A stretch of 64,000 nucleotides of DNA, from the NCBI GenBank assembly GCA_026418905.1, contig JAOAAK010000029.1, forward strand, positions 62,001 through 126,000, in the 5' to 3' direction. A model generated the notes under the pieces. The model had not been told where the DNA came from, made no database searches, and saw only the letters and a program-made list of their open reading frames with translations. Positions within the stretch are counted from its first letter, which is position 1, and the number at the start of each line of letters is the position of its first letter. Both the position numbers and the translations under genes were made by a program. Source of the DNA: Bacteroidales bacterium. Lineage in GTDB: Bacteria; Bacteroidota; Bacteroidia; Bacteroidales; DTU049. This document shows, in pieces, positions 333 through 24,411 of this stretch.

Positions 333-2474
333 ATGGGAACCATAAGTAAAATAAGAAAACGCTCCGGCTTGCTTCTCATAGCCATAGGAGGTGCTATGGT
401 ACTTTTTGTTATGAGTGACCTTTTTTTCAAAAATAAGCGTCCCACCATTCCTCCTCTCGCTAAAGTTTTCGACGAAAATATCACTTATAATGAATTTCTG
501 AGCAGGTATGAAAGTACCAAAGAACAATACAAAATGCAATATGGTGAAGATATGACATTTTCTGGAGCAGAAGAATTTCAGATAAAAAACTCTGTATTCG
601 ATCAACTGATAAAAAACATATTAATCCAGATTGAATACGAAAAAACAGGATTAAAATTAACTGATGCAGAAATCTACGAATATATTACCGGACAGCTGAC
701 TCATCCTATCGTAAAACAATTATTCACCAATCCCCAAACAGGTGAATTTAATCAAACACTGGTTTATAATTTTATCAACAACTTGGAACAAAGACCTGAA
801 CGAGAACAAAAAATATGGAAAATGTATGAAAAAATTATTATTGATGAACTTTTCACAAATAAATACATCAACCTTATCACCAAATCTTTTTACTTTCCCA
901 AACGTTTTGCTGAGAAAGAAAATAAGGAAAGAACCGTTAAGAAAAAGGTGGTGTATGTAGCCTTACATTATGGTTCTTTAAAAGATTCCGCTATTCAGGT
1001 TACCGACAAGGATTTCGAAAAATATTATGCAGAAAACAAATATTTGTACACTTACGAAGAAGAACTAACAGATATTGATTATGTCATTTTTCATATCAAG
1101 CCTTCTCAGATCGACATGCGTATGACGAAAACCAAAGTAGATACAACCTTTACTTCCTTTATCAACACACCAATTGAAAAATTACCCGAGTTTATCGTCA
1201 GAAATAGTGATTTGGATTACACGTGGGATTCATCCTATCTTGCAAAAGAAGAATTGTCATATTACCAAGATACATTGTTTAATGCAAAAATTGGTTCTTA
1301 TGTCAAGCCATATCTCGAGGGATTTAGCTTTTTTATGCATAGACTCATTGATCGCAAAGAGCTGCCTGATTCAATGAAAGCAGCACATATTCTAGTTTCA
1401 TATCAAGGAGCCATGTTTGCTCAGGATACTATAACACGTACCAAAGAACAAGCTAAAGCTAGAGCCGATAGTATATTGAATCTTGTAAAAGGTAAGGACA
1501 GCTCCACTTTTGCAAAAATAGCTAAAGAAATGAGTAACGACCCCTCAGCCCAGCAAAACAATGGTTTTCTTGGATGGTTCAAAGAAGGAACCATGGTCCC
1601 CGAATTTAATAATGCCTGTCTTCATGCCAAACCTGGAGAATTCATGGTAGTAGAAACTCCATACGGATTTCACGTGATCAAACTATTAGCAAAATCAAAG
1701 CCAACTCCCAAGGTTAAAATAGCTACTGTTAAAATATCTGTGCCAGTAAGTAAACAAACGACTGACTCGATTTATAATCTAGCAAGTGTCATTGCCGCTG
1801 AAACAAAAAACTATGAAGATTTCGAAAAAATCCTTTCCGAAAAGGGATATATCAAAAACGTAGCAGAAAAAGTACGAAAAACAGATTATACCATTGCTGG
1901 TCTAGAAAATGGGCGAGAAATCATTCGATGGTCTTTTTATAAAGAAACAAAACCACGTGAAACTGTAAATCTTTTCGACCTATCTACCGAAAACAAATAC
2001 GTAGTAGCCATAGTGAAAAACAAATATGAATCTGGTCCAGCACCTCTCGAACAAATTAAAGACCTGATTAAACCTATGGTTATTAAAGAAAAAAAAGCAG
2101 AAATGCTTGAAAAAGAACTTAAAACAAAAATGGAAGGGTGTAAATCTGTGTTCGATCTTGCTAGCAAACTCAAAGAAAATCCGGACACTTTTGATATTAA
2201 TTTCTTCACCTATTCATTACCTGGATACGGGCCTGAATCCAAACTAATTGGAAAAATGTACGCCACAACCAAAGGTAAATTGGTAGGACCTGTTAAAGGA
2301 GAAGGTGGTGTTTATGCATATGAAATCATTGACGAAACTAAGCCCGATAGTTTAAAATACGATGACTTTTTTAAACAAAAATTTTATCATTATCAATCCA
2401 AAGTGAATGGCCAACTCTTCAAAGCTTTGCAAAAACTTGGCAATTTAAAAGATAATCGAATAGAATACTATTAA
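333..2474 (+). CDS. ppiD: Membrane-anchored peptidyl-prolyl isomerase / periplasmic foldase, PpiD type
   Basis: This 713-residue protein has one N-terminal membrane anchor (about residues 12-32, LLLIAIGGAMVLFVMSDLF). A SurA/PpiD-like chaperone region with YNEFLSRYE and a LIKNILIQIEYEKTGLKLTDAEI segment follows. The parvulin rotamase domain is at about 348-450 (AAHILVS, SNDPSAQQNNGFLGWF, PEFNNA, TPYGFHVIKL). A second, more degenerate isomerase-like or chaperone half fills the C-terminus. PpiD proteins are anchored in the inner membrane with the body in the periplasm and help outer-membrane and secreted proteins fold. Length and layout fit the PpiD/SurA_N family of Bacteroidota. Its own promoter box sits at 308-315. 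Confidence 0.88.
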   Translation: MGTISKIRKRSGLLLIAIGGAMVLFVMSDLFFKNKRPTIPPLAKVFDENITYNEFLSRYESTKEQYKMQYGEDMTFSGAEEFQIKNSVFDQLIKNILIQIEYEKTGLKLTDAEIYEYITGQLTHPIVKQLFTNPQTGEFNQTLVYNFINNLEQRPEREQKIWKMYEKIIIDELFTNKYINLITKSFYFPKRFAEKENKERTVKKKVVYVALHYGSLKDSAIQVTDKDFEKYYAENKYLYTYEEELTDIDYVIFHIKPSQIDMRMTKTKVDTTFTSFINTPIEKLPEFIVRNSDLDYTWDSSYLAKEELSYYQDTLFNAKIGSYVKPYLEGFSFFMHRLIDRKELPDSMKAAHILVSYQGAMFAQDTITRTKEQAKARADSILNLVKGKDSSTFAKIAKEMSNDPSAQQNNGFLGWFKEGTMVPEFNNACLHAKPGEFMVVETPYGFHVIKLLAKSKPTPKVKIATVKISVPVSKQTTDSIYNLASVIAAETKNYEDFEKILSEKGYIKNVAEKVRKTDYTIAGLENGREIIRWSFYKETKPRETVNLFDLSTENKYVVAIVKNKYESGPAPLEQIKDLIKPMVIKEKKAEMLEKELKTKMEGCKSVFDLASKLKENPDTFDINFFTYSLPGYGPESKLIGKMYATTKGKLVGPVKGEGGVYAYEIIDETKPDSLKYDDFFKQKFYHYQSKVNGQLFKALQKLGNLKDNRIEYY

Positions 2475-2546
2475 TTATCTATTTTCTACATGTCCACCTA
2501 CTTCCATTCGATTTTAATGCAAGCAACATAAACAAATGTGTCAAAT

Positions 2547-2554
2547 TAAATTTG
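2547..2554 (+). promoter_or_regulatory. -7 promoter box abutting the C1B peptidase start
   Basis: TAAATTTG matches TAnnTTTG exactly and ends 7 bases before the ATG at 2562. Transcription would therefore start at or within a few bases of the start codon. Confidence 0.55.
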
Positions 2555-2561
2555 AAATAAA

Positions 2562-3938
2562 ATGAAGCAACTTCCGTATATTTGGGTGGTTTTCTTGCAT
2601 ATTACATTGTTTTCTCAACATTTAACAAATGAGATTTTGCAAGAAATTAGAAAAAAATACGAACAATCATCACCCAATCAGGGGTTAATTAATGCTCTTT
2701 ACTCCAACGAACTTAACAAAATTGTCGTTAACCAAAAAAACAGGGCTAAACCTGATGACTATTTTACCTATAAAGTAAAAACATATGGTATAACTGATCA
2801 AAAAAGCTCAGGTCGTTGTTGGATGTTTGCAGGTTTAAACACATTGCGTCCTCGCGTAATCGAAAAATACAACCTAAAAAATTTTGAATTTTCCTACAAC
2901 TTTCTATTTTTTTATGATTTGTTGGAAAAAGCAAATCTATTTTTAGAAAGTATCATTCAAACTTCAGACAAACCTCTCGATGATAAAAAAGTTGAATGGT
3001 TATTAAAAAATCCTATTTCCGATGGTGGCACATGGGCAGGCCTTGCCCATCTTATTGAAAAATATGGACTTATTCCAGCTGAGATCATGCCAGAAAATTT
3101 TTCGTCTAATAACACAAGAGGTCTTATCTCCATTCTTTCAACGTATCTTCGACAGGAAGCACTATCTCTCAGAGAGATGGCCGAAAAAAAAGCAAAAAAA
3201 GATGATATTCAAAAAGCAAAAATACTTGCTTTATCCAACGTATACAAAATTCTTGCCTATCATCTTGGTGAACCCCCAAAAAATTTCACTTATCGTTTTA
3301 TTGACAAAGATGGAAAAGCATCTTCTCTGAAAAGCTACGATCCAATTAGCTTCCGAGATGAAGTTTTACCAAACTTTAAAGCTCAAGATTACATCATGTT
3401 CATGAATGATCCCTCCCGTCCATATTTTAAACTCTATGAAATTGACCTTGACAGAAACATCTACGAAGGATTTAATTGGAAATATATTAATCTTCCCATA
3501 GAAGAAATTAAAAAAATGGCCATTGAGGCTTTGAAAAACAACGTAAGCCTTTATTATTCTTGTGATGTTGGTAAGCAAATCGACAAAAATGAAGGTCTTC
3601 TTGATCTTAACAATTACGATTATTTTTCATTGTACGGCATACCCTTTATAATGGATAAAAAACAACGAATCATTACTTTTGAAAGTGGTAGTACGCACGG
3701 CATGAATCTAATTGCAGTCGATATCTTAGACAATAAACCTGTCAAATGGTTGGTAGAAAATAGCTGGGGAAGCACAGGAAAAAATGGAAATCTTCTTATC
3801 ACTGATGCTTGGTTTAATGAGTATACTTTCAGAATTGTTATTCCCAAAGAATTTGTCCCTGAAGATATCTTGAAAATATGGAAAGAAAAACCCATTCTTC
3901 TTCCTCCATGGGATCCTATGTTTTCTATGGACGAGTAA
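2562..3938 (+). CDS. Secreted C1B cysteine peptidase (bleomycin hydrolase / aminopeptidase C family)
   Basis: The protein has 458 residues, the usual size for PepC/bleomycin hydrolase. The papain-fold triad is visible: the nucleophile in DQKSSGRCWMFAGLN (Cys about residue 87), the His in GSTHGMNLIAVD (about 380) and the Asn in WLVENSWGSTG (about 400). The first ~20 residues form a hydrophobic signal sequence (IWVVFLHITLFSQ), so unlike classical cytosolic PepC it is probably exported to the periplasm or beyond. It would trim amino acids from peptide N-termini. It has its own promoter box and is followed 10 bases later by the MscS-like gene, so the two are likely co-transcribed. Confidence 0.88.
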   Translation: MKQLPYIWVVFLHITLFSQHLTNEILQEIRKKYEQSSPNQGLINALYSNELNKIVVNQKNRAKPDDYFTYKVKTYGITDQKSSGRCWMFAGLNTLRPRVIEKYNLKNFEFSYNFLFFYDLLEKANLFLESIIQTSDKPLDDKKVEWLLKNPISDGGTWAGLAHLIEKYGLIPAEIMPENFSSNNTRGLISILSTYLRQEALSLREMAEKKAKKDDIQKAKILALSNVYKILAYHLGEPPKNFTYRFIDKDGKASSLKSYDPISFRDEVLPNFKAQDYIMFMNDPSRPYFKLYEIDLDRNIYEGFNWKYINLPIEEIKKMAIEALKNNVSLYYSCDVGKQIDKNEGLLDLNNYDYFSLYGIPFIMDKKQRIITFESGSTHGMNLIAVDILDNKPVKWLVENSWGSTGKNGNLLITDAWFNEYTFRIVIPKEFVPEDILKIWKEKPILLPPWDPMFSMDE

Positions 3939-3948
3939 AGCACTTCAT

Positions 3949-5148
3949 ATGCAAAATAAATTTGCTTTATATGATTTTGTAAAAAATTTACTGGAAAAAA
4001 ATCAGATTTTTGCTCACATTGAACATCAAATTATCATTTTCGTCAATCTTGGTTTTCTCTTACTTATCAGTTTTTTGGTTTATTACATCACCAAATTTTT
4101 TGCTATTCGCATCATTAGAAGAATTACTAAGCGTACTAAAACACTATTAGATGATGCATTTAGTGATACACGTTTTCTTAAACGTGCCTCTTTTATTATT
4201 CCTTTAATCATCATTTACAAACTCACTCCTTACACCTTGCCACATTATGTTGGTTGGATATCCTTACTTCAAAATGCCACCAAGATTTTTATTGTTTTTT
4301 TTCTCATTCTAGCTTTGTATGCTCTAGCAGATGCATTTTACAAAATTTACGATTCGATAGAAAATACCCACTTTCAACCCATCAAAGGTTATGTACAAGT
4401 ATTCAAGTTAGTAATTGGCTTGATGGGTGGCATTGTTATTTTGTCTATTTTGCTGAGTAAGAGTCCTGCTGTGCTCATCGGAGGACTTGGAGCATTGAGT
4501 GCTGTGCTTCTTCTTGTTTTCAAAGATCCCTTGCTGGGTTTTACCTCATCCATTCAACTGACAAGTAATAAAATGATTCAGAAAGGCGACTGGATTTCCA
4601 TTCCAAGTTCCAACATTGATGGAGAAGTTGAAGAAATTACCCTATCTTCGGTTAAAATCAAAAATTTTGATCTCACTTACTCATATTATCCAACCTATTC
4701 ACTGCTCACCAGTCCCTTCATTAACAACAGAGGAATATATGAAAATAAATGCCGACGAGCTTTTCGAAAAATCTATATCCAACCATCATCCGTAAAACTA
4801 CTAACGAAAGAGCAATCTCTACTCATCAAAGATAATCTTCCTTCTCATTTACAATCTTACTTTCCTGTCAATATAAGTGAGTCTATAACCAACTTGCAAC
4901 TATTTCGAATGCTTTTACAATCTTATCTGGAACAAGATGATCGTTTTGATCATCAACAATTGACTATGGTTTATGTTCGTGATGTTGAACCATTTGGTCT
5001 TCCTCTTTTTTATTATGCTTTTACTCGAACTACAGAATGGAAAGAATTTAATGAAATTAACAATGAACTTATGGAATTGATATTTTCTCTTTTACCCATT
5101 TTTGAAATCAAACTTTCAGAAAATATACCTCGCAACCCGATGAATTAA
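3949..5148 (+). CDS. Mechanosensitive ion channel, MscS family (YbdG/MscM-like)
   Basis: This 399-residue membrane protein has about five predicted membrane spans in the first ~200 residues. The pore-lining MscS helix follows, rich in Gly/Ala/Leu (VLIGGLGALSAVLLLVFKDPLLGF, about 177-200). A beta domain comes next (GDWISIPSSNIDGEVEEITLSSVKIKNFD) and then a cytoplasmic vestibule domain. Such channels open under membrane tension and release solutes during osmotic downshock. Length and the inserted segment after the beta domain fit the YbdG branch better than the short MscS of E. coli. It lies 10 bases after the C1B peptidase. Confidence 0.86.
   Translation: MQNKFALYDFVKNLLEKNQIFAHIEHQIIIFVNLGFLLLISFLVYYITKFFAIRIIRRITKRTKTLLDDAFSDTRFLKRASFIIPLIIIYKLTPYTLPHYVGWISLLQNATKIFIVFFLILALYALADAFYKIYDSIENTHFQPIKGYVQVFKLVIGLMGGIVILSILLSKSPAVLIGGLGALSAVLLLVFKDPLLGFTSSIQLTSNKMIQKGDWISIPSSNIDGEVEEITLSSVKIKNFDLTYSYYPTYSLLTSPFINNRGIYENKCRRAFRKIYIQPSSVKLLTKEQSLLIKDNLPSHLQSYFPVNISESITNLQLFRMLLQSYLEQDDRFDHQQLTMVYVRDVEPFGLPLFYYAFTRTTEWKEFNEINNELMELIFSLLPIFEIKLSENIPRNPMN
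4936..4954. repeat. Short perfect inverted repeat inside the MscS-like gene
   Basis: GATGATC, five bases GTTTT, then GATCATC form a 7-bp stem. It is wholly inside the coding frame and may be chance. Confidence 0.3.
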
Positions 5149-5195
5149 TTTTTTTAATAATTATCAGTATGGTTAACAACAAAGCTGAAAATTCG

Positions 5196-5203
5196 TAACT
5201 TTG
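5196..5203 (+). promoter_or_regulatory. -7 promoter box for ferritin
   Basis: TAACTTTG matches TAnnTTTG exactly and lies 15 bases before the ATG at 5219. Confidence 0.6.
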
Positions 5204-5218
5204 TAAAAATATTTAATT

Positions 5219-5701
5219 ATGAATTCAAAAGTTGTTAAAGCCTTAAACGATCAAATCCAAGCTGAATTGTATTCTTCATATTTGTATCTTTCCATGGCAG
5301 CCTATTTTGCAGATGCTAATTTGAATGGTTTTTCTCACTGGATGAAAATACAAGCTCAAGAAGAATATGGGCATGCCATGAGAATATTTGATTATCTCAA
5401 CGAAAGAAATCAACGAGTAGAACTTCTTTCCATCCAACAACCCCCTAAAGATTGGTCATCTCCAAAGCAAGCTTTTGAGGATGCTTACAAACATGAATGC
5501 TACATTTCCGACAGAATTAACAAAATTCTCGAATTAGCTATCGAAGAAAAAGACTACGCTACCCAGAATTTTCTCCAATGGTTTATAGCAGAACAAGTTG
5601 AGGAAGAAGCTTCTGTCAACGAAATACTCCAACATCTCAATATGATTGAAGGGAACACCGGACTTCTCATGTTAGACAAAGAACTAAAAAAACGCAGTTA
5701 A
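5219..5701 (+). CDS. ftnA: Non-haem ferritin
   Basis: A 160-residue four-helix ferritin. Ferroxidase-site residues of bacterial FtnA are present: Glu16 in DQIQAELYSSYLYLSMA, Glu49 and His52 in AQEEYGHAMRIFDYL, a Glu near 93 in YKHECYIS, and EQVEEEASVNEIL near 127-133. It oxidises Fe(II) and stores iron as a mineral inside a 24-subunit cytosolic shell, limiting iron-driven oxidative damage. It has its own promoter and is convergent with the CNNM gene. The call is firm. Confidence 0.95.
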   Translation: MNSKVVKALNDQIQAELYSSYLYLSMAAYFADANLNGFSHWMKIQAQEEYGHAMRIFDYLNERNQRVELLSIQQPPKDWSSPKQAFEDAYKHECYISDRINKILELAIEEKDYATQNFLQWFIAEQVEEEASVNEILQHLNMIEGNTGLLMLDKELKKRS

Positions 5702-5724
5702 TACCAAATCGCTTTTCACGTTTT

Positions 5725-6741
5725 TCAGGCTTGACCCCTAATCTTTTCTCGAAAATCGGGGTGTATATCTTTTTCGTCAATAATTTTTAATCCTAGCAAA
5801 GCTTCGAGTATATCTTCTAGGGTGATAATGCCACTAAAAATACCGTATTCATCTACCACGACAGCAATATGTTCTTTTTTCTGGAGCATTTTGTTAAAAA
5901 CCTGATGGAGGGGATAGTATTCAAAAGTTACAATAGCTGGACGAGAAATTTTATAAACAGGCGTAGCTTCTCTCTTTTCTACAATTTCTTTTAAGACATC
6001 CGATTTAAGAACATATGAATAAACACGATGCTTTTTCTTATCAAGGAACAGAGGTATTCGAGAAAATTGCTCGAATTCTTTATATTGGGTCATTCCTCCA
6101 CAGGGGGTTTTATAATGTACAATAAATGCAGCTTTCCTAGGTGTCATAACCGAAAAGACTGGATGATGATAACAAGAAATAAAATGTTGAATAATGTGAG
6201 TTTCCTGGGGATTGAATAATCCTTCTTCTTCTCCCTTTTTGGCAAGAGCATAAATTTCTTTCCTATCTAAGGTTGTTTTTTTGGTGTTTTCGGTATTTAA
6301 TCGCCGTGTTAAAAAAAGTGTTATTTGGACAAAAGGATAAGTAAGATAGATCACACCGATAATAATTGCAACAGTAATAGCCATGGTCTTTTTCCAATAC
6401 AAGCTTCCCAAAGTTTTGGGGATAATTTCCGAAAAAATTAAAATAGTTATGGTAAGAATTGCCGAAATGAGGCCATAGGATATATTTTCAAAGTGTATGC
6501 TAGCCAATGCACCTATAAGAGTAGCTCCCGCTGTATTAGCAATGGTGTTTAATGTAACGATAGCTGTGATAGGAACTGATGTTTGTCTTTTGAATTCCAG
6601 TGCTTTATTAGCCCAATTTGCGCCATCTTCTCTCATTTGAACCAAATAAGATATTTGCGACGACAACAATGAAGACTCAATAAAACTACAAGTAAAGGAA
6701 ATAAGTACCGTTGCCACGAAAATCAAAAAAAGAGAAAGCAT
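5725..6741 (-). CDS. CNNM/CorB-type membrane protein with CBS pair, short form
   Basis: 338 residues. The N-terminal DUF21/CNNM membrane domain (about 1-150) carries the family signatures SFIESSLLSS, NTIANTAGATLIGA and IFSEIIPKTLGSLYWK. A tandem CBS domain follows (about 190-320, SVMTPRKAAF to GIFSGIITLEDILEALLG). CNNM/CorB/C proteins are linked to Mg2+ or Co2+ export or homeostasis. The protein stops shortly after the CBS pair, whereas many bacterial homologues (about 420 aa) add a C-terminal CorC_HlyC domain that is missing here. It lies 9 bases after the lipoprotein gene at 6751-7791 and probably shares its promoter. Confidence 0.85.
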   Translation of the reverse strand: MLSLFLIFVATVLISFTCSFIESSLLSSQISYLVQMREDGANWANKALEFKRQTSVPITAIVTLNTIANTAGATLIGALASIHFENISYGLISAILTITILIFSEIIPKTLGSLYWKKTMAITVAIIIGVIYLTYPFVQITLFLTRRLNTENTKKTTLDRKEIYALAKKGEEEGLFNPQETHIIQHFISCYHHPVFSVMTPRKAAFIVHYKTPCGGMTQYKEFEQFSRIPLFLDKKKHRVYSYVLKSDVLKEIVEKREATPVYKISRPAIVTFEYYPLHQVFNKMLQKKEHIAVVVDEYGIFSGIITLEDILEALLGLKIIDEKDIHPDFREKIRGQA

Positions 6742-6750
6742 AATTTTCTC

Positions 6751-7791
6751 CTACTCAAAATTAGGGAAATAGCCAAAGAAATTCAAATTTTTTGTTTTAT
6801 CATTCTCAAGAATTTCTTCTTGAGTCTGGGAATTTAACTTAAATTTTAGAGTTTTTCTCAAACGGAAAGCAAATAAACCTAGAGCATCGGAAATATTGGT
6901 ATATGTCAATTTATCTTGAACAATGGTATTTGAGGGGCTACTTGCTCGAATATAAGTGGCAAAGTCATCATTTCCAACGGTAATAACTAACCAAACATGG
7001 CCAAAATAACGCTTAACATCGTTCACAACAGGTATGTTTCGTTGAAGTAAATCATAAAATGTTGAACCGTTGTAGTTAATGGCCATAGTTTCTCCTCCAT
7101 TCAAAAAAGAAGATTGTAAACTACCCAGATGCCATTCTATCGATTTTGCTATGGTGTCCTGCGGATGCATGTTATATATTTCGAAATAGTCGAAAATAAA
7201 TTTGACTTCATAAATCCTGCCATTGGGAGTAGATTTCCATTCAATTACTGAACTTGTTGAGGGAAGAAAGCCTATAGAAGTTTGGTAAAAGCTGGGTTTA
7301 ACGACTTCAAAATTCTGAAGAGGTTTTGCTATTGCTTCGTAAATTCTTTCATTAACTGTATCCTCAACAACCAGTTTGTATGAATATGCTGGATTAAACC
7401 AAAAGGTATCTGTTTTAACAACCTGATAAAATGTGGGAATTTTCAAGCGGTAATAAGGGTGTTGTCCAGTAAAGAATTTATCGCCACTCGTGAAAAAATG
7501 AACTGTATCGGCGTAATATTCACTCAACACATTGCCACCAGATGTTAACGATTGCAATTTGACTTTCAATAAATAAGGATAAAAAATACTGTCGTACAAC
7601 TGAGTGTAATGGTACACGTTACCATCCGCAAGAAAAGTACGATGTATCTTAATGTACTGAGTAGGTGAAGTTACATCTAATATGGCATAAATGACAGGCT
7701 TATGGTCAGCTTTCCCTGTAATATCCACCTCTGTTGAACAGGATTCTAATAATGTGATGATTATCCCTAAAAGAATTATTTTTTTGTGCAT
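6751..7791 (-). CDS. Lipoprotein, DUF4249-like
   Basis: 346 residues with a lipoprotein signal peptide ending in LLESC (Cys about residue 18), so it is probably lipid-anchored. The body has beta-rich stretches such as HKPVIYAILDVTSPTQYIKIHRTF and YSYKLVVEDTVNERIYEA, a pattern like the DUF4249 lipoproteins of Bacteroidota. The molecular function of that family is unknown. It has a TATTTTTG promoter box at 7805-7812 and is followed by the CNNM gene. The family assignment is by overall resemblance only. Confidence 0.6.
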   Translation of the reverse strand: MHKKIILLGIIITLLESCSTEVDITGKADHKPVIYAILDVTSPTQYIKIHRTFLADGNVYHYTQLYDSIFYPYLLKVKLQSLTSGGNVLSEYYADTVHFFTSGDKFFTGQHPYYRLKIPTFYQVVKTDTFWFNPAYSYKLVVEDTVNERIYEAIAKPLQNFEVVKPSFYQTSIGFLPSTSSVIEWKSTPNGRIYEVKFIFDYFEIYNMHPQDTIAKSIEWHLGSLQSSFLNGGETMAINYNGSTFYDLLQRNIPVVNDVKRYFGHVWLVITVGNDDFATYIRASSPSNTIVQDKLTYTNISDALGLFAFRLRKTLKFKLNSQTQEEILENDKTKNLNFFGYFPNFE

Positions 7792-15947: not shown

Positions 15948-17744
15948 CTAGTTAAAAAATATCCAACTTATACCCCAACGTACACCACGGTCAGGTAAAG
16001 GATAAGCTGGCACCTGCCAGTAACGCACGGGAAACAACCCGGCTGCAAAATTATAGATTTCAACAAAAAAAACTGCCCTTTTAATTTGAGATCTTATAAA
16101 AAAAGTGGGGTACCAAAATCCATCTGTTTGTATATCTTGTTGAGGATAAAAAATTCCCAAGTATGGGTAATAAGCATCAGCAAAATAGGAACTATTATAA
16201 AAATACTTCATGCCCACTTCGCCAAGTAGTTTTCGCTGAAAAAACCACGTTCGGTAGAAGATTTCTCCCCGTATTCCAAACAAAGGTAATGACAGCAATT
16301 CTGACGTAGACCTCTGTAAAATCATGCGATTCAGTATAAAAAAGTTCTTGAAATTTGCGTTAAAATAGCAACTCACACCACCTACTCCTATTTGACCTAA
16401 TGAAGTAAACATATTTTGATAAAAAACAGGCATGTTTCTAACATCAGCTCCATACACCTCGAGAGTCATAAATTTGCTTTTCAAACCTACACGATGTAAT
16501 AAAACAACAACATCAGAAAGAGAATGGTCATACTGTAAATGATTTCCTCGATACCGTTCATACAACAACGATGGATGAAAAGAATAAATCTCTTGAGTAA
16601 GATATAATTTTCCAGATGATAGAACCTTGATCATCAATCGATGCTGTATTTCAAGTAAAGACCTATTGGCCCCGACTATACCTTTACTCGTTTTACCAAC
16701 CCACAAAAGCTTTTCATTCCGGGAGGTCCAGTTCCATTTAAAATATGACATAGTCGACATCGTATCGAAATTAAACATAGAAGAAAAACGGTTCCATTCT
16801 TGCCACATCGAGAGTTGAAAAAAAATATTTTTCAATTTTCCATTTAATGCCGTAGCTACACGATAAGTCAGAACATGAAGTGAATCAAGTGTGATGGAAC
16901 TATCCAAATAAATATTCTGATAGTAACCTGATCCGGGAAATTCATCTTTGAATCGGTTATATTTTTTCTCTAATTCAATATTAAGAGGAAATAATCGAAT
17001 TTCAAGGAAAGGTTTTTGAATGATAGCATAAGAACTATTCCATGAAAAACGAGTAAATCTTACATGACGCGAAGCTTTACTTAACAAAATCTGACATAAA
17101 GCTCGATCATAAATGGATGTGTCAAGAAAATCTTCTGCATACTTAATTCCTCCATTTTCTTGAAAACGAAAGTAATTGTCTTGTAGGAGGAATAAAGTTC
17201 GAAAACGATAGTTTTTCGAGTGAAAATTAATCTTCGAAAAAAAATTACTTAGACTGATTTTCTGGTTCTTATACCAGCCTGCAGAGCCTACTAAGTGATA
17301 ATTTAAGAGAACATCTACTTGTTTTCCCCAAGGAAAATAAAACCAGAAGGAAAATTGTTGTTCGCGTTTCGATCCCTGGCTATAAGACGTTATAGAGTAA
17401 GGTTCATGTTTTGGTTTGAAAAGAAAAGAAAACGATGTATCAAGACAAACGAAATGTTCAAAATTTTGTAAGAAAGAATCAAATTTTTTAGGCATCCTTT
17501 CTACTACATCGGCAAAGTACAAATACTGATACATACTTTCTGCAGGTCCTATTCTGTGATAAAATTCGAGATTGGTGTCTAACCATTGATTAAGCCAATG
17601 TTTTATATAATACGTTTGAATAAATAGACCATCATCTTTTTTCTCATGACTCGAAAAAAAAGTAGAATCCGTTTTCTCTTGGGAAAGCAATATCAAGGTG
17701 TAGCTCAATAATAAATTTCTCCAAACAAGCTTAAATAATTCCAT
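15948..17744 (-). CDS. Putative outer-membrane porin (Porin_10-like)
   Basis: 598 residues with an N-terminal signal-like segment (LVWRNLLLSYTLILLSQ). The body is rich in alternating aromatic and polar strands. It ends in YPLPDRGVRWGISWIFFN, with the terminal aromatic residue expected of outer-membrane beta-barrels and resembling the C-terminus of the Bacteroidota Porin_10 family. Substrate unknown. The start overlaps the upstream VTT gene by 14 bases and the end lies 5 bases before the YchF-like gene, so it belongs to the gatE operon. Confidence 0.68.
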   Translation of the reverse strand: MELFKLVWRNLLLSYTLILLSQEKTDSTFFSSHEKKDDGLFIQTYYIKHWLNQWLDTNLEFYHRIGPAESMYQYLYFADVVERMPKKFDSFLQNFEHFVCLDTSFSFLFKPKHEPYSITSYSQGSKREQQFSFWFYFPWGKQVDVLLNYHLVGSAGWYKNQKISLSNFFSKINFHSKNYRFRTLFLLQDNYFRFQENGGIKYAEDFLDTSIYDRALCQILLSKASRHVRFTRFSWNSSYAIIQKPFLEIRLFPLNIELEKKYNRFKDEFPGSGYYQNIYLDSSITLDSLHVLTYRVATALNGKLKNIFFQLSMWQEWNRFSSMFNFDTMSTMSYFKWNWTSRNEKLLWVGKTSKGIVGANRSLLEIQHRLMIKVLSSGKLYLTQEIYSFHPSLLYERYRGNHLQYDHSLSDVVVLLHRVGLKSKFMTLEVYGADVRNMPVFYQNMFTSLGQIGVGGVSCYFNANFKNFFILNRMILQRSTSELLSLPLFGIRGEIFYRTWFFQRKLLGEVGMKYFYNSSYFADAYYPYLGIFYPQQDIQTDGFWYPTFFIRSQIKRAVFFVEIYNFAAGLFPVRYWQVPAYPLPDRGVRWGISWIFFN

Positions 17745-18381
17745 AAATAACTAATGCATAGAGGTAGAAGTGTAGAATCCTCATCGTTGCCCAGAAAGCA
17801 AGAAGGGGAAAAGGATATCGTATAAGGCCCATGGAAATTACAACAAAAGTATATGGAAGCGGTGTAAGAGCTGCAGCTGCAATTAGGTACCCTCCCCATT
17901 TTTTAGAATTTTTGACATATCTGTCAAACCTCAATAAAAAATATGTATTAACAGAAGGAATTTTTCGTATCATTCTTCCTATTGCATAGGCCGTTAAAGA
18001 TGCAAAGTACGATATGAGAGCAAGAACGGTTAAACACAACCAAGGATTTTCTAAACTATTTGTCCAAAAAATAAATAAATCCACTGGCAAAATTGGTAAA
18101 GCTGCTTCCAGAATGAAAAAAATCACCATCACCCATCCGAAAGGAACATAGGTAACCATCATATCAAAAAAAGCATCGATGTCGAACAAGCTATTTCCCA
18201 AGAGATACAATAAAACCACAATAACAATGAAAATTATCAAAAGTTTAAGAAGAGGTTTTCCAACGTATTTAAAAAAACCTGTTCTTTTCAATTGATGATA
18301 AGTAAGGGACCATGATTTAAGAAAATTTCTTTTTTTCTTAGAACCATTGTTTCCGTTGATCTGATTTACCTGCGGTTTCAT
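17731..18381 (-). CDS. VTT/DedA-type membrane protein (YqaA-like)
   Basis: 216 residues with about five hydrophobic spans. The re-entrant VTT-type segment is recognisable: WGGYLIAAAALTPLPYTFVVISMGLIRYP (about 160-188). A hydrophilic, Lys-rich N-terminus of ~40 residues precedes the first span. Family members (DedA, YqaA) are inner-membrane proteins, some of which move lipid carriers such as undecaprenyl phosphate across the membrane. The specific substrate is unknown here. It lies 4 bases after gatD and overlaps the porin. Confidence 0.7.
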   Translation of the reverse strand: MKPQVNQINGNNGSKKKRNFLKSWSLTYHQLKRTGFFKYVGKPLLKLLIIFIVIVVLLYLLGNSLFDIDAFFDMMVTYVPFGWVMVIFFILEAALPILPVDLFIFWTNSLENPWLCLTVLALISYFASLTAYAIGRMIRKIPSVNTYFLLRFDRYVKNSKKWGGYLIAAAALTPLPYTFVVISMGLIRYPFPLLAFWATMRILHFYLYALVIYGII

Positions 18382-18385
18382 AAGC

Positions 18386-19771
18386 TTACTTGTGGTATTT
18401 TTTTAAAAATTCCTCTACTTCTGGCACTCCTCCTTGCAAGATGATATAACCATTGTAAGGCTCACGTTCAGTGATTTCATCATTGATTGGTGTGAGCATA
18501 AGTTCTTTAACTTTCTCAGGATCATCTGTTTGTCCTAATACCCAACCTAGTTTAATGTAAGCTGTTTCTGGCAGCATGTTCCCTGCAGGAATAATTCCTT
18601 TTGCCATTAAATCTCGTCCTGTATCATATACAAACATATGAGCATATCCCCATAAAGTTTGAACAGTCATGAACATATGTACTCCTTTTTTATGAGCCCG
18701 TTCAATGGCGGGATACAAAGGTTTATTGACATGACCTAGGCCAGTACCCGCAAAAACTATTCCCCTATAGCCATTTTCCACAAGGCTATCTATGATGTCA
18801 GGTTGCATGTTGGGATAATAGTAAACAATGGCTACTTTTTCTTCAAAATAAGGTAAAATTCTAACATCTTTATCTTTACGTCGTTTTTTAAAATTTTCTT
18901 TCATAGGGAAAACTCCCTTTCGTGTTACTTTTGCCAAAGGTATATCACCAATGGTTCTAAAAGTAGAACGATAAGATGAATGCATTTTACGCACACGAGT
19001 TCCACGATGCAGAAAACCGTATTCGTCAGAAGTGGGGCCAAACATACAGACCATGATTTCAGCTATTTCACCATGTCCTGCGGCTACCATAGCATGAATC
19101 AAGTTGAGAGCGGCATCAGAACTAGGTCTGTCGGAACTCCGCTGTGAACCAACTAATACAATCGGCACTGGTGGATTCTGTACCATGAAAGTTAAAGCAG
19201 CGGCAGTGTGAGAAAGAGTGTCTGTTCCATGACCAATAACAATACCATCAATGCCTTTTTCAATTTCCTGCCCAATAGCAATAGCTAATTTCTTATATTG
19301 CTCTGGTCCCATGTTTTCACTAAATACAGCAAACAATTTTTCGGTGGTCAAGTTACAAATGTCTGCTAGTTCTGGTACTGCTCCATACAATTCACCGGGA
19401 GTAAAAGCAGGTATGACAGCACCTGTACGATAATCGAGTCTGGATGCGATGGTGCCCCCTGTGCCAAAAAGCTTAACTTTTGGCAAACCAGGCTTCATCG
19501 GAAATTCTTTCTCTGGTATCTTGTAGTGTGCTTTCTTATAACCGACCTCCTCCATGTGAGTAATAGTCTGAATATCAAGACCTATATTGTAGCCTGTTTG
19601 GATTTTAAGTACTATATGTAAATCATCGTCGTTTTCAGCTCTTGGCAACACTGTTCCAAAAAACTCCCCTCGGGTTGTTTGAATTTTTGCTTGCCCCCAA
19701 ACACGAACCTGAAATTTTTTCAGTAATTCCAGTGCCCTACCTTTATAACCTTGAAATAAATCCTCATTCAT
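18386..19771 (-). CDS. gatD: Glu-tRNA(Gln) amidotransferase subunit D (archaeal-type GatDE)
   Basis: 461 residues. An N-terminal beta-barrel-like domain (about 1-90, FQVRVWGQAKIQTTRGEFFGTVLP) precedes an L-asparaginase-fold glutaminase domain. The catalytic set is visible: Thr107 in FGTGGTIAS, Thr183-Asp184 in HGTDTLSHTAAAL, and a Lys near 262 in TRVRKMHSSYR. The extra N-terminal domain and the RVRKMHSSYRSTF stretch distinguish GatD from ordinary asparaginases. GatD releases ammonia from an amide donor and passes it to GatE, which amidates Glu-tRNA(Gln). Its start overlaps the gatE stop by 8 bases. This two-subunit enzyme is known from archaea; finding it here is unusual. Confidence 0.93.
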   Translation of the reverse strand: MNEDLFQGYKGRALELLKKFQVRVWGQAKIQTTRGEFFGTVLPRAENDDDLHIVLKIQTGYNIGLDIQTITHMEEVGYKKAHYKIPEKEFPMKPGLPKVKLFGTGGTIASRLDYRTGAVIPAFTPGELYGAVPELADICNLTTEKLFAVFSENMGPEQYKKLAIAIGQEIEKGIDGIVIGHGTDTLSHTAAALTFMVQNPPVPIVLVGSQRSSDRPSSDAALNLIHAMVAAGHGEIAEIMVCMFGPTSDEYGFLHRGTRVRKMHSSYRSTFRTIGDIPLAKVTRKGVFPMKENFKKRRKDKDVRILPYFEEKVAIVYYYPNMQPDIIDSLVENGYRGIVFAGTGLGHVNKPLYPAIERAHKKGVHMFMTVQTLWGYAHMFVYDTGRDLMAKGIIPAGNMLPETAYIKLGWVLGQTDDPEKVKELMLTPINDEITEREPYNGYIILQGGVPEVEEFLKKYHK

Positions 19772-21746
19772 GACCTAAAATTTCTTTTATAACTGTCTTT
19801 GCTAGCAATGTTAACTTCACATTCCCAAGGGCCTGATATCTAATTTGACCTAAAACCCAGTTGACTTTGTCCTCAGCTGATGCTCTCTTGCTAGGATGAA
19901 ATTTACCGATTAGTATGCGAATTTTTTCCATCAGTTCATCTTGGGAAGTACGTTTAAAACCTATGGTAGTTAGTATGGAATGAAAATCCATCTGAGGATG
20001 TTCATACAACACGGGAAGTATTTTATATGCCAATTCCTCATCTATTTTTTCATTTCGAAGGAAAACAAACAACTCTTTTATTTTATGATAATTAAATCCG
20101 AAACCTTTCTTATAATGCCCTTCTACGTACTTGAGAAATTGACCCAAAAAATGTCCGATCCATTTGGGTGGAATAGATAACAAGTTACTGATTTCCTCTA
20201 ACAAAGGGAAAAGATTTTTACTTAAAATGTAAGTAAACAAGTGTTCTCCAATGCCCCATTCTTTCATTTTTTTCATTCTTTCGAAAACATCCTCTGGAAG
20301 ATCCTTTTTTAAAGATTCAATATAAGCTGAACTCAATGGAATGGGAGCACTATCAGTGTCTGGATACATGCGATCAGGTCCCGGTAGCACACGTTCAAAC
20401 ATGGTAGTGCCGTTAGGGAAACTTTTACGAGTCTCAGGAGGAACACCTTTGAAAGCCAATTTGCAACGTTCTTCGACAGTTTCTAAAGCTGTAGGAATAT
20501 CATCCTGCGGACCCCATAAAAGTAAAAAACTATCCTGCTCGCCAATTTTTAAAATGCTCTCTAAATAGCGGATTTGTTCAAGCGTCATGGGATGAAATAT
20601 TTCTTCAGCATGCTGCATATTGGGCTTTTCAATGCAAGCAATGACTTTTAGTCTATCACTTATTTCATCTGCAAACACACGGCCTGGTTGAGTAAAATGA
20701 CTCAATATTCCTCTAAAGCCAGGCAAGCGAATAGCATGAAACTGAAAACCTTGCTGAGCAAAATGTGCCAAATCAGGAAATAAAGCTGAAATATCGTCGT
20801 TTTTTACCTGTACCTCTTCTATTTTCCACAAATCTGGTTGTTGCACAGATTGAAGTAGCTTATTGCGTATGAGCAAAAGCGACCATTGCCTGAAAACTTC
20901 ATTGTGGGTCAATTCCGGTATCCATTTGGTATGACTTACTCCTTTGATTTCAACTCTTGTTCCACCACGACAGCTTACATTTACATCCTGACGAGAAGCT
21001 CCTATCCCTGTTCTAACCAGACCTGAACTTCTGTTTAGAAAACGGATGTAATCACATGCTTCCTTCACTTCATTGGGATTTTTCATGTCGGGGTAAGTCA
21101 CCGTTTCGATCAATGGCATTCCCAATCGATCGGTTTTGTAAACTCTTACATGACCTATATCAGAGATTTCCCTGCAGCTATCTTCTTCTACACTAAGTTG
21201 CATGAGGCGAACCTTACGATTTTTTAATGGAATTTCTCCACCCACCCCTACAATAGCCGTACGTTGAAACCCAGTTGGTATACTTCCATCCAGATATTGT
21301 TTACGTGTAATATGTACCTCTCCCACGATATTCATCTTACACATAAGTGCAAGCTTGATTGAAATTTCAAGGGCTTCACGATTAATAGGAAATGGAGGAG
21401 TATCATCAATTTCATACGTACAAGTGGTGATATTTTTTATTCGATAAATGATTTCTTTTCTGGTTTTAAACTCCATCAAAGCAGTCCCATCGTATTCACC
21501 CAACTCACTGAGGGTAGGTCTCATGTGGCGTATGATTTCAGCATCAAATTCGTCATCATCATGGTAAATACCTGCTGGACAATGACAAAAAAGTTTTTTT
21601 GTTGTAAGAAGTTGTTGGTGAACTTCCAGCCCACTCATAAAACCTATTCGATCATAAGTTTCTTGGGTTGCTTCTAAGCGAGATACGTAGCCAGCTTCCT
21701 TCAATGTTTTTTCATAATTAGCGCGTGAATCGAAATTTCCTAGCAT
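19764..21746 (-). CDS. gatE: Glu-tRNA(Gln) amidotransferase subunit E (archaeal-type GatDE)
   Basis: 660 residues. The catalytic GatB/GatE cradle has GFMSGLEVHQQLLTTKKLFCHCP, RHMRPTLSELGEYDGTALMEF, TRKQYLDGSIPTGFQRT, EEDSCREI and GIGASRQDVNVS. The GatE-specific AspRS-like GAD insertion (about 300-430, ALFPDLAHF, LPGFRGILSH, VFADEISDRL), absent from GatB, is present. A helical tRNA-binding tail with VNWVLGQI ends the protein. It phosphorylates Glu on tRNA(Gln) with ATP and transfers ammonia supplied by GatD, making Gln-tRNA(Gln) without GlnRS. A TACTTTTG box at 21766-21773 drives the operon gatE-gatD-VTT-porin-YchF-like. Confidence 0.94.
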   Translation of the reverse strand: MLGNFDSRANYEKTLKEAGYVSRLEATQETYDRIGFMSGLEVHQQLLTTKKLFCHCPAGIYHDDDEFDAEIIRHMRPTLSELGEYDGTALMEFKTRKEIIYRIKNITTCTYEIDDTPPFPINREALEISIKLALMCKMNIVGEVHITRKQYLDGSIPTGFQRTAIVGVGGEIPLKNRKVRLMQLSVEEDSCREISDIGHVRVYKTDRLGMPLIETVTYPDMKNPNEVKEACDYIRFLNRSSGLVRTGIGASRQDVNVSCRGGTRVEIKGVSHTKWIPELTHNEVFRQWSLLLIRNKLLQSVQQPDLWKIEEVQVKNDDISALFPDLAHFAQQGFQFHAIRLPGFRGILSHFTQPGRVFADEISDRLKVIACIEKPNMQHAEEIFHPMTLEQIRYLESILKIGEQDSFLLLWGPQDDIPTALETVEERCKLAFKGVPPETRKSFPNGTTMFERVLPGPDRMYPDTDSAPIPLSSAYIESLKKDLPEDVFERMKKMKEWGIGEHLFTYILSKNLFPLLEEISNLLSIPPKWIGHFLGQFLKYVEGHYKKGFGFNYHKIKELFVFLRNEKIDEELAYKILPVLYEHPQMDFHSILTTIGFKRTSQDELMEKIRILIGKFHPSKRASAEDKVNWVLGQIRYQALGNVKLTLLAKTVIKEILGHE

Positions 21747-21765: not shown

Positions 21766-21773
21766 CAAAAGTA
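21766..21773 (-). promoter_or_regulatory. -7 promoter box for the gatE operon
   Basis: TACTTTTG on the minus strand, 20 bases before the ATG at 21746: an exact Bacteroidota-type box in front of an archaeal-type gene pair. Confidence 0.6.
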
Positions 21774-21834: not shown

Positions 21835-22227
21835 ATGAAAAACAAATCATTCTTATTACTTATTTTTATCTTAATAATGATCAATGTTCTATTTGATTGC
21901 TCTAAGAAAGAATCAATTCGTCAGGACTCCCCCCCCATAGATGTTAAAATCATTCCACCTGACACAATGGAATTGCTTATGAGAGATATGTACTTAACTG
22001 AGTCTTACATCAGGTGGTCTTCAGCCAAAGGAAACAACCCTGCTGATGTTTCCTATTTTTTCTACAAACTTTTGCTTACAAAATATCATCTCGACACCCA
22101 TCGTGTGAATGCTTCAATAAAATTTTACATTGCCCACGAAGATCAGTGGATAAAGATTCTTACACGTATTATAAATGAAGAATTTTCAGATGTTGAAATA
22201 AAACCAGATCAAAATCAACCCTTTTAA
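21835..22227 (+). CDS. Small lipoprotein, DUF4296-like
   Basis: 130 residues with a lipoprotein signal peptide ending in VLFDC (Cys about residue 20). The body matches the DUF4296 pattern: IIPPDTMELLMRDMYLTESYI, FFYKLLLTKYHLDTHRVNASIKFYIAHEDQWIKIL. The family is known from Bacteroidota and has no assigned function. A near-match box CATCTTTG precedes the start. It is divergent from gatE, and its stop overlaps the stop of the C10 protease by 4 bases. Confidence 0.75.
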   Translation: MKNKSFLLLIFILIMINVLFDCSKKESIRQDSPPIDVKIIPPDTMELLMRDMYLTESYIRWSSAKGNNPADVSYFFYKLLLTKYHLDTHRVNASIKFYIAHEDQWIKILTRIINEEFSDVEIKPDQNQPF

Positions 22228-23921
22228 TCGAAAACCATGATTTTTTCTGTGATGGAAAAATGGTCTCCATAAATCTTCACGAAGAAAGTTCCTGCATTAT
22301 GCAGTTTCAACGAAATATGGGTTTGGTTAGCCATTGTTTCATAGACTTTTTGAAACAATGAATTATAAAGTTCAATTTTTATTCCTTCATTAATTATTTC
22401 AGATGGAATATCCACAAAAAACTCATCGTTGGCAGGATTAGGGTAAACATGTATCTTATCCCGTGCATATTCTTGAAGATCCACAAAGCTGGTGGTATAA
22501 TAAAAGGAAAAACCATCTGAACGCAAGATATCATCTGACGAAAAGGTTATATAAGCAGCATTACCCCATACCAGGATAGGTTGCGTTGGTATTTCATATC
22601 CAGATATTGTTGCTACTAGTTGTGCGTTAGTATTGGTCCCCTGATAGATTTTGATTTCATCGGCATCTTTTTCTGTAGCAAGTTTAGTAAAATGAATGTA
22701 GATCAACCCTGCTCCTGGAGGTTGAATGAGCCAAGCACATTGGCTATTGTTTCCATAACGTTCAGATCCGCTACCATCTTCAATAGTATCCGTCAAATTG
22801 GTATAAACCTGCATCGAGGGGCAATATATGAAATCGGTTTCAGCAGGTTCTAAACCTACAATTAACCTCTGATCAGAATTAAAATTGATACTTCCAGGAT
22901 TAAAATTGGAAAGGGAATAATACCCATCGTAAGCTCCTCCCCATCCCCAATTAATATGAAAACGACCAGAAGCATCAATCCCATCAACCACAAAAGCATG
23001 GCATCCCCCGTTACCACATCCAGCATAAACAAGAGGCCTACGGGCAAGTAATTCGTTCTGCATGATTTCTGCCCACGTGGCATCGTCAATTCCGTTTCGT
23101 TCAATTAATGTGGCATAGTTTGCGTATTTAAAATATGTTTTGAATGCTTCGGCAGCAAGAGACAAACTAGATCCTGAACCAGTCGGCCCGTAATCCATAT
23201 TGACAGAGACACCACAGTGAAATAACAAAGTTGCTACTGGGATGTTGTTAGTAGTAAGCTGACTTGGCATGCTATCCCAAAGATATGTAGTTGCTCCAAA
23301 ATTAGCTGAAAGATTTGGATAGAGATATGTGCCATAGATGTGACTTCCTTGTCCCTGCACAGGATATGCATGAAATTTCATAACCTGTCCCATAGCAGTT
23401 GCCACGCAACCCGCATAACAATGACCGCATGGGCCATCCACATGTTCCGGACAAAGTTCATTGTAATAACAATCTTGATTCCATTTTGTCGCTAGTAAAG
23501 GAGCAACTGCCAGTTTATTTGACTCAAACAACTTCCCATCCCTCAAAAACAAAGACCATGCTTCACGAGCACCATCGCTCGAGCTTTTTCTATTTTTTTC
23601 CAACTCTATTTGTTGTTGTACGAAGTTAAAATACCATTTAACGGAAGGAGGCATTACTCCTAAATCAGATTCTTCGCTGTAGGCTACGATGGGATCAAAC
23701 ATCTTATCCTTTGTGGTTACTATAAACCCTTTGCCTATTTTATTCTGAATAAAAACAAGATCCGGGTATTCCTGCTGAAAATTGGTACAAATCTGTGGAA
23801 TAAACTCTATATTCTTTGCCTTGAAAAATTTCTCTGCGCCTGCCTCAATCTGAAATAGAGAAACATCTTGAGCACTTAATCCAAAAGCAATAAACATAAA
23901 TAACAAAATAAAAGTTTTCAT
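22224..23921 (-). CDS. Secreted C10 (streptopain-like) cysteine protease with CUB domain and type IX sorting tail
   Basis: 565 residues from the ATG at 23921. The frame extends to 24035, but a signal peptide (TFILLFMFIAFGLSAQ) and a TAATTTTG box fit 23921. A propeptide (about 20-140) precedes the catalytic domain. The nucleophile is Cys172 in YAGCVATAMGQVM, the base His308 in GCHAFVVDG, and INWGWGG follows. A CUB domain lies at about 355-470 (YCPSM to FSFYYTTSF). The last ~80 residues are a T9SS type A tail (HVYPNPANDEFFVDIP, ending KIMVFD). It should cross the outer membrane by T9SS and act on extracellular protein. Confidence 0.9.
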   Translation of the reverse strand: MKTFILLFMFIAFGLSAQDVSLFQIEAGAEKFFKAKNIEFIPQICTNFQQEYPDLVFIQNKIGKGFIVTTKDKMFDPIVAYSEESDLGVMPPSVKWYFNFVQQQIELEKNRKSSSDGAREAWSLFLRDGKLFESNKLAVAPLLATKWNQDCYYNELCPEHVDGPCGHCYAGCVATAMGQVMKFHAYPVQGQGSHIYGTYLYPNLSANFGATTYLWDSMPSQLTTNNIPVATLLFHCGVSVNMDYGPTGSGSSLSLAAEAFKTYFKYANYATLIERNGIDDATWAEIMQNELLARRPLVYAGCGNGGCHAFVVDGIDASGRFHINWGWGGAYDGYYSLSNFNPGSINFNSDQRLIVGLEPAETDFIYCPSMQVYTNLTDTIEDGSGSERYGNNSQCAWLIQPPGAGLIYIHFTKLATEKDADEIKIYQGTNTNAQLVATISGYEIPTQPILVWGNAAYITFSSDDILRSDGFSFYYTTSFVDLQEYARDKIHVYPNPANDEFFVDIPSEIINEGIKIELYNSLFQKVYETMANQTHISLKLHNAGTFFVKIYGDHFSITEKIMVFD

Positions 23922-23938
23922 TTCCCTCACTTTTGCAA

Positions 23939-23946
23939 CAAAATTA
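23939..23946 (-). promoter_or_regulatory. -7 promoter box for the C10 protease
   Basis: TAATTTTG on the minus strand, 17 bases before the ATG at 23921. It falls inside the longer frame that starts at 24035 and so supports the shorter protein. Confidence 0.55.
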
Positions 23947-23982
23947 TCACATTTACATAAATTAGCATCTAAATTCAATTCC

Positions 23983-24411
23983 ATGGGAAAAATAGTTCTT
24001 GCTTTTATGTTCATGTGGTTCCTATATGATAACATGATCTCTCAACAGGTTGAAATAACTATCACCAACATTCGCAACTCCAAAGGTGTGATCAGAATCG
24101 GGATTTTCAAAGATCAGGAAAGTTTTGACAAGGAAACCCCCTATGATGGCAAAATATTTCCTAAGAAATCCGTTTTAAATGGAAAACTTGTTGTCAAATT
24201 TGATTTACCACCTGGTAAATATGGTTTTGCTGTTCTTGATGATGAAAACGAAGATGGAAAGATGAATTACAACTTATTAGGTGTACCCAAAGAAGGGTAT
24301 GGTTTTTCAGGAAATACCTTTTTTTTAAGCAAACCTTCTTTTTCGGAATTTGCTGTGAACATTCGTAAAGGGCTGAACAAGTTTACCATTGAGATGAACT
24401 ATGTTTTTTAA
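23983..24411 (+). CDS. DUF2141 secreted protein
   Basis: 142 residues with a signal peptide (IVLAFMFMWFLYDNMISQ). The body follows the DUF2141 pattern: VEITITNIRNSKGVIRIGIF, GKLVVKFDLPPGKYGFAVLDDENEDGKMNYNLLGVPKEGYGFS. DUF2141 proteins are small, exported, beta-sandwich-like proteins of unknown function, and the DENEDGKMN stretch could bind a cation. It is divergent from the C10 protease. A near-match box CACTTTTG is at 23928-23935. Confidence 0.82.
   Translation: MGKIVLAFMFMWFLYDNMISQQVEITITNIRNSKGVIRIGIFKDQESFDKETPYDGKIFPKKSVLNGKLVVKFDLPPGKYGFAVLDDENEDGKMNYNLLGVPKEGYGFSGNTFFLSKPSFSEFAVNIRKGLNKFTIEMNYVF

Follow-up and report, generated by a model that had tools for sequence, protein, structure and literature searches.

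Within the window analyzed, a stretch of 64,000 nucleotides from the genome (2.1 Mb, 97% complete) of an uncultured Bacteroidales bacterium, we found two adjoining minus-strand genes, gatE first and gatD second, which are predicted to encode the subunits of a GatDE-type amidotransferase (Table 1). The ORF list returns exactly the sizes, positions and 8-base overlap given for them in the initial annotation. That annotation also had the two genes run into a porin gene: a Porin_10 gene is indeed present, but the gene for a membrane protein of 216 aa, for which the Pfam search gave no match, lies in between and is probably part of the same transcript as gatD. Across the neighborhood clusters of the other loci, neither of these two genes belongs to a conserved neighbor family beside gatED. 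The Bacteroidota box proposed ahead of gatE was found as TACTTTTG, a short motif and thus weak evidence. Elsewhere in the window, positions 22224-24035 code for a 603-aa protein; on visual inspection, it looks like a C10-type cysteine peptidase that is secreted and has a sorting domain at its C terminus.

Table 1. Coordinates of the gatE/gatD locus and its flanking features, in window positions.
Feature	Position	Strand	Description	Basis
gatE	19764..21746	-	660 aa, predicted Glu-tRNA(Gln) amidotransferase subunit E	Above the cut-offs of TIGR00134 and NF003107; fold resembling archaeal GatE
gatD	18386..19771	-	461 aa, predicted glutaminase subunit	TIGR02153, 497 bits; nearest solved structures archaeal GatD (2d6f_A, 1zq1_A)
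GAD-type insertion of GatE	20451..20846 (approximate)	-	Residues 301-432; GatB is without it	Alignment and AlphaFold secondary structure
GatD N-terminal domain	19562..19687	-	Residues 29-70	PF18195 GatD_N, E=1e-10
GatD active-site stretch	18986..19453	-	Thr107, Thr183, Asp184, Lys262	Invariant in 123 sequences
Possible Bacteroidota -7 box	21766..21773	-	TACTTTTG, 19 bases before the gatE ATG	Short motif, weak evidence
Membrane-protein gene	17731..18381	-	216 aa, 4 bases after gatD	ORF
Porin_10 gene	15948..17744		Beyond the 216-aa membrane-protein gene	Pfam

Judged by curated models, fold and catalytic residues, the two genes are a genuine GatE and GatD, as the initial annotation had claimed. 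GatE scored 411 bits on TIGR00134 (cut-off 320) and 472 on NF003107 (cut-off 456) and fell far below the cut-off of the GatB model (131 bits against 315), while its AlphaFold model (mean pLDDT 84) matched archaeal GatE at E=2e-38, compared with 2e-18 for the best GatB. GatD, which comprises the GatD_N, Asparaginase and Asparaginase_C domains of Pfam, exceeded the TIGR02153 cut-off of 324 bits and, as expected, also satisfied the general type I asparaginase subfamily model. It shares the catalytic domain and active-site residues with the type I L-asparaginases/glutaminases but differs from them in having GatD_N, passing the GatD model and being co-encoded with GatE. These model scores and fold matches rule out a GatB or a plain asparaginase mis-called as GatE or GatD. 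The solved structures nearest to the pair are the archaeal GatDE entries 2D6F (Methanothermobacter thermautotrophicus) and 1ZQ1 (Pyrococcus abyssi), with which it has in common the subunits, the GAD-type insertion, the catalytic residues and the fold. The insertion, claimed from the outset, is borne out as an extra segment of ~130 residues by both the alignment and the AlphaFold model; Pfam GAD was not called in this GatE and gave weak calls in two relatives (L001, L159). The N-terminal domain and the Thr/Thr/Asp/Lys glutaminase site claimed for GatD were likewise recovered, the former as GatD_N and the latter as four residues that are identical in 123/123 aligned GatD sequences, including two archaeal ones. 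With bacterial GatCAB the pair shares the reaction type and, in GatE, the catalytic domain of GatB (PF02934), but for glutaminase it has a GatD of the asparaginase type where GatCAB has an amidase-type GatA. In the GatDE family, GatD hydrolyzes glutamine and passes the ammonia to GatE, where the glutamyl group carried by tRNA-Gln is phosphorylated and amidated; the catalytic conservation supports an intact version of this chemistry in the pair described here.

The same genome encodes a full-length GlnRS (737 bits) with HIGH- and MSKR-type active-site motifs and a catalytic core that aligns well throughout, as well as an AsnRS, so that, going by these genes, both Gln and Asn can be charged directly. 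Its GluRS, present in a single copy, has Arg392 where the Thermus thermophilus enzyme has Arg358; an arginine there marks discriminating enzymes, although it failed to predict specificity in Helicobacter pylori GluRS1 (PMC3927822). Searches of the genome gave no match for GatA or GatB, found no amidotransferase other than GatDE and identified no non-discriminating GluRS. The setting thus differs from the archaeal-style indirect pathway, which combines GatDE with a non-discriminating GluRS and has no GlnRS: here GlnRS is present and the GluRS is bacterial and apparently discriminating, the arginine on which this assignment rests being an unreliable marker in some lineages. Of the two roles first suggested for GatDE, replacement of the bacterial route was rejected in view of this GlnRS and of its equal frequency with and without GatE (see below), while that of a backup fits the coexistence of the two enzymes without being proven by it.

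GatE over the cut-off is found in 30/395 genomes sampled across the phylum, in 121/295 of the order (about 40% of those sampled) and in 5/12 of the family, in which the genus g172 is entirely without it; many relatives, g172 among them, do without GatDE. A pattern scan of named genomes recovered at least 571 loci with relatives, and nearly all of the best 80 come from Bacteroidales, with the isolates Perlabentimonas gracilis and Labilibaculum sp. K2S among them. GatDE is hence no lone transfer. In the order, GlnRS accompanies GatE in 110/121 genomes (91%) and is as common where GatE is missing (156/174, 90%), which shows that GatDE was added to GlnRS and is not a substitute for it; the 11/121 genomes with GatE and no full GlnRS are mostly less complete assemblies. 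In the phylum sample, GlnRS occurs in 26/29 other GatE carriers, and the three in which it falls below the cut-off (G314, G287 and G251) all have GatB. Two of these, the other-class genomes G314 and G287 (L003, L004), combine GatDE and GatB with no GlnRS over the cut-off, that is, two amidotransferases and no direct route. At 115/138 loci, gatD lies on the strand of gatE and no more than 400 bases behind it, though the flanking genes change. Some of the exceptions are contig ends; five others (L133, L136, L161, L166, L174) have ample sequence 3′ of gatE and no adjoining gatD. Among about 140 gatE loci, we found no conserved third partner gene beside gatED, and glnS adjoins the pair at one alone, in G433 (L347, G433:C78), where glnS, gatE and gatD lie on one strand at 1893-3599, 3700-5697 and 5697-7082, with gaps of about 100 bases and then -1 base. 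This cluster ties GatDE to Gln charging in one relative.

We posit, with middling confidence, that GatDE is an active Glu-tRNA(Gln) amidotransferase that is inherited within Bacteroidales and kept besides the direct GlnRS route as a backup or proofreading enzyme. GatD would free ammonia from glutamine; GatE, using ATP, would activate the glutamyl moiety of Glu-tRNA(Gln) and add the ammonia to give Gln-tRNA(Gln). With GlnRS in place, no GatCAB and an apparently discriminating GluRS, the most likely substrate would be the little Glu-tRNA(Gln) that arises from mischarging, whether by GluRS or, under glutamine shortage, by GlnRS. Such a supply would make GatDE a backup or repair step, which keeps Glu from Gln codons. 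The model scores and fold, the invariant GatD residues, the low dN/dS, the coexistence with GlnRS here and across the order, the AsnRS and the single GluRS with its arginine, the lack of GatA and GatB, the adjacency of gatE and gatD and the G433 cluster all speak for this reading; the U1:A72 pair of tRNA-Gln, the relatives without GatDE, the poorly conserved helical and tail parts of GatE and the assumed supply of Glu-tRNA(Gln) speak against it.

The helical and tail parts of GatE have diverged. According to PMC4810234, archaeal GatE uses its tail to check the small D-loop of tRNA-Gln and its helical part to grip the T-stem. Positions conserved in both Bacteroidales and other-class GatE make up 157/348 of the catalytic cradle compared with 2/180 of the helical and tail parts, which indicates a catalytic machine that is effectively frozen and tRNA-reading parts that have moved, which sets the pair apart from archaeal GatDE. 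In a quick GatE tree, the Bacteroidales branch is fully supported, holds one other-class row and has a long stem of 1.16 changes per site. This stem and the uneven conservation would suit an enzyme that retains the GatDE chemistry but acts on something other than Glu-tRNA(Gln), e.g., a different aminoacyl-tRNA or a glutamyl group not borne by tRNA, as would the fact that a cell with GlnRS does not need GatDE to charge Gln. We regard such a repurposed enzyme as rather unlikely, given that the overall fold is still predicted by AlphaFold with the helical and tail parts included, that GatE scores above the curated equivalog cut-offs, that glnS, gatE and gatD are clustered in G433 and that no other conserved partner gene was found.

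On the tRNA side, both tRNA-Gln genes of this genome have the bacterial U1:A72 pair and A73, and not the archaeal A1:U72, which archaeal GatDE is said to read together with the D-loop (PMC9499178); this is a second departure from the archaeal-style pathway, besides the presence of GlnRS. The tRNA-Gln genes of the order fall into two classes: the D-loop is short in one, while members of the other have one more base there as well as a variable loop of five bases. In this genome, the UUG tRNA belongs to the short class and the CUG tRNA to the long one. The preference for a particular tRNA-Gln that had been suggested for GatDE finds an echo in the co-occurrence of the long class with GatE, in 95/126 genomes with GatE versus 47/169 without (order-wide, GatE fragments counted) and, by family, in 52/62 versus 19/58. 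When kinship is controlled for with the GlnRS tree standing in for the species tree, pairs independent by descent agree in direction 5.5-6.6 times and disagree 0.2-0.4 times (median p 0.03-0.06). The strong raw association is thereby weakened; the long class is tied to genome size as closely as to GatE, and in families of mixed GatE status, the tRNA-Gln class shows no consistent shift. Coupling of GatDE to a special tRNA-Gln was set aside on these grounds, and we treat the association as a suggestive lead.

The same figures bear on a division of labor, in which GatDE with a partly non-discriminating GluRS would be the main route for one tRNA-Gln, e.g., that with the longer D-loop, and GlnRS would serve the other. 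Both the excess of the long class among GatE carriers and the agreement of the independent pairs point that way, and the failure of the Arg358 marker in H. pylori (PMC3927822) leaves room for a GluRS of this kind. We nonetheless consider it improbable: the GluRS retains the discriminating Arg, the tRNA link is of borderline significance, equally tied to genome size and without a consistent shift in mixed families, and the long CUG tRNA is often found beside glnS in genomes with and without GatE alike. In our survey of glnS loci (L249-L367, e.g., L307, L326, L330), 33/120 genomes, 25 with GatE and 8 without, have a long-D-loop tRNA-Gln(CUG) at a distance of about 700 bases or less from glnS. 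More broadly than the backup or proofreading role, we tentatively propose a third arrangement for coding glutamine, which we think somewhat doubtful as a whole: many Bacteroidota would combine GlnRS and GatDE with no GatCAB, and the tRNA-reading parts of their GatE would have re-evolved for U1:A72 tRNA-Gln, perhaps of one D-loop class, giving either proofreading of Glu-tRNA(Gln) or a separate isoacceptor route.

The pair is also at home in its present lineage. GatE is 57-65% identical to its Bacteroidales homologs and 32-35% to archaeal GatE; for GatD, the corresponding values are mostly 75-85%, reaching 85%, and 48%. Mean identities fall from 62% within Bacteroidales through 42% to other-class bacterial GatE to 31% to archaea, and for GatD from 79% through 66% to 46%. 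As regards the old transfer from archaea inferred in the initial annotation, bacterial GatE stands apart from archaeal GatE with full support in the quick tree, which holds two archaeal sequences, and a plasmid search gave one partial archaeal match. Most unsaturated close pairs have a dN/dS of 0.005-0.03 for GatD and 0.03-0.07 for GatE, with one outlying pair each (0.12 for GatD and 0.18 for GatE); purifying selection on the pair is strong, and that on GatD is extreme. Three further readings, namely contamination, a recent and transient uptake from archaea, and a functionless gene in decay, for which the archaeal names of the protein families and the patchy carriage within the genome's own family (5/12) might be cited, are ruled out for practical purposes by the neighboring Bacteroidota gene (Porin_10), the homologs in sequenced isolates, the very low dN/dS and the far higher identity to Bacteroidales than to archaeal sequences. 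The view of the initial annotation that this is not archaeal contamination is upheld by the many Bacteroidales genomes with such homologs. Three gatE genes (L148, L151, L156) that are placed among Bacteroidales sequences are on contigs labeled as Archangium and Aminicenantes groups, suggesting mis-binned contigs or transfer.

An amidotransferase that is kept despite direct charging of tRNA-Gln has a precedent in the GatCAB that occurs beside GlnRS and AsnRS in Deinococcus and Bdellovibrio. That GatCAB is linked to the formation of Asn on tRNA-Asn (PMC4206432), unlike the amidotransferase here, which is of the Gln-specific type. Two open-access reviews treat GatDE as confined to archaea, as the initial annotation had said, among them a 2022 review, which builds on this confinement for its arguments on LUCA and on why archaea never took up GlnRS (PMC9499178). 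The conserved GatDE that accompanies GlnRS in this order, with a carriage of about 40% among the genomes sampled, contradicts that statement. A wide distribution already described in this phylum had been named as what would speak against the initial annotation; the pair is widespread in the order, and in the open-access literature on GatDE that we consulted, we found no description of bacterial carriers. For Bacteroidetes, a survey concluded from the lack of GatCAB that the indirect route for Gln is defunct (PMC3927822), a conclusion that the combination of GatDE and GlnRS in Bacteroidales reopens. As carriers such as Perlabentimonas and Labilibaculum are in culture, the question is directly testable. 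The NCBI models already name both genes correctly, and GatDE may be silently annotated across many genomes.
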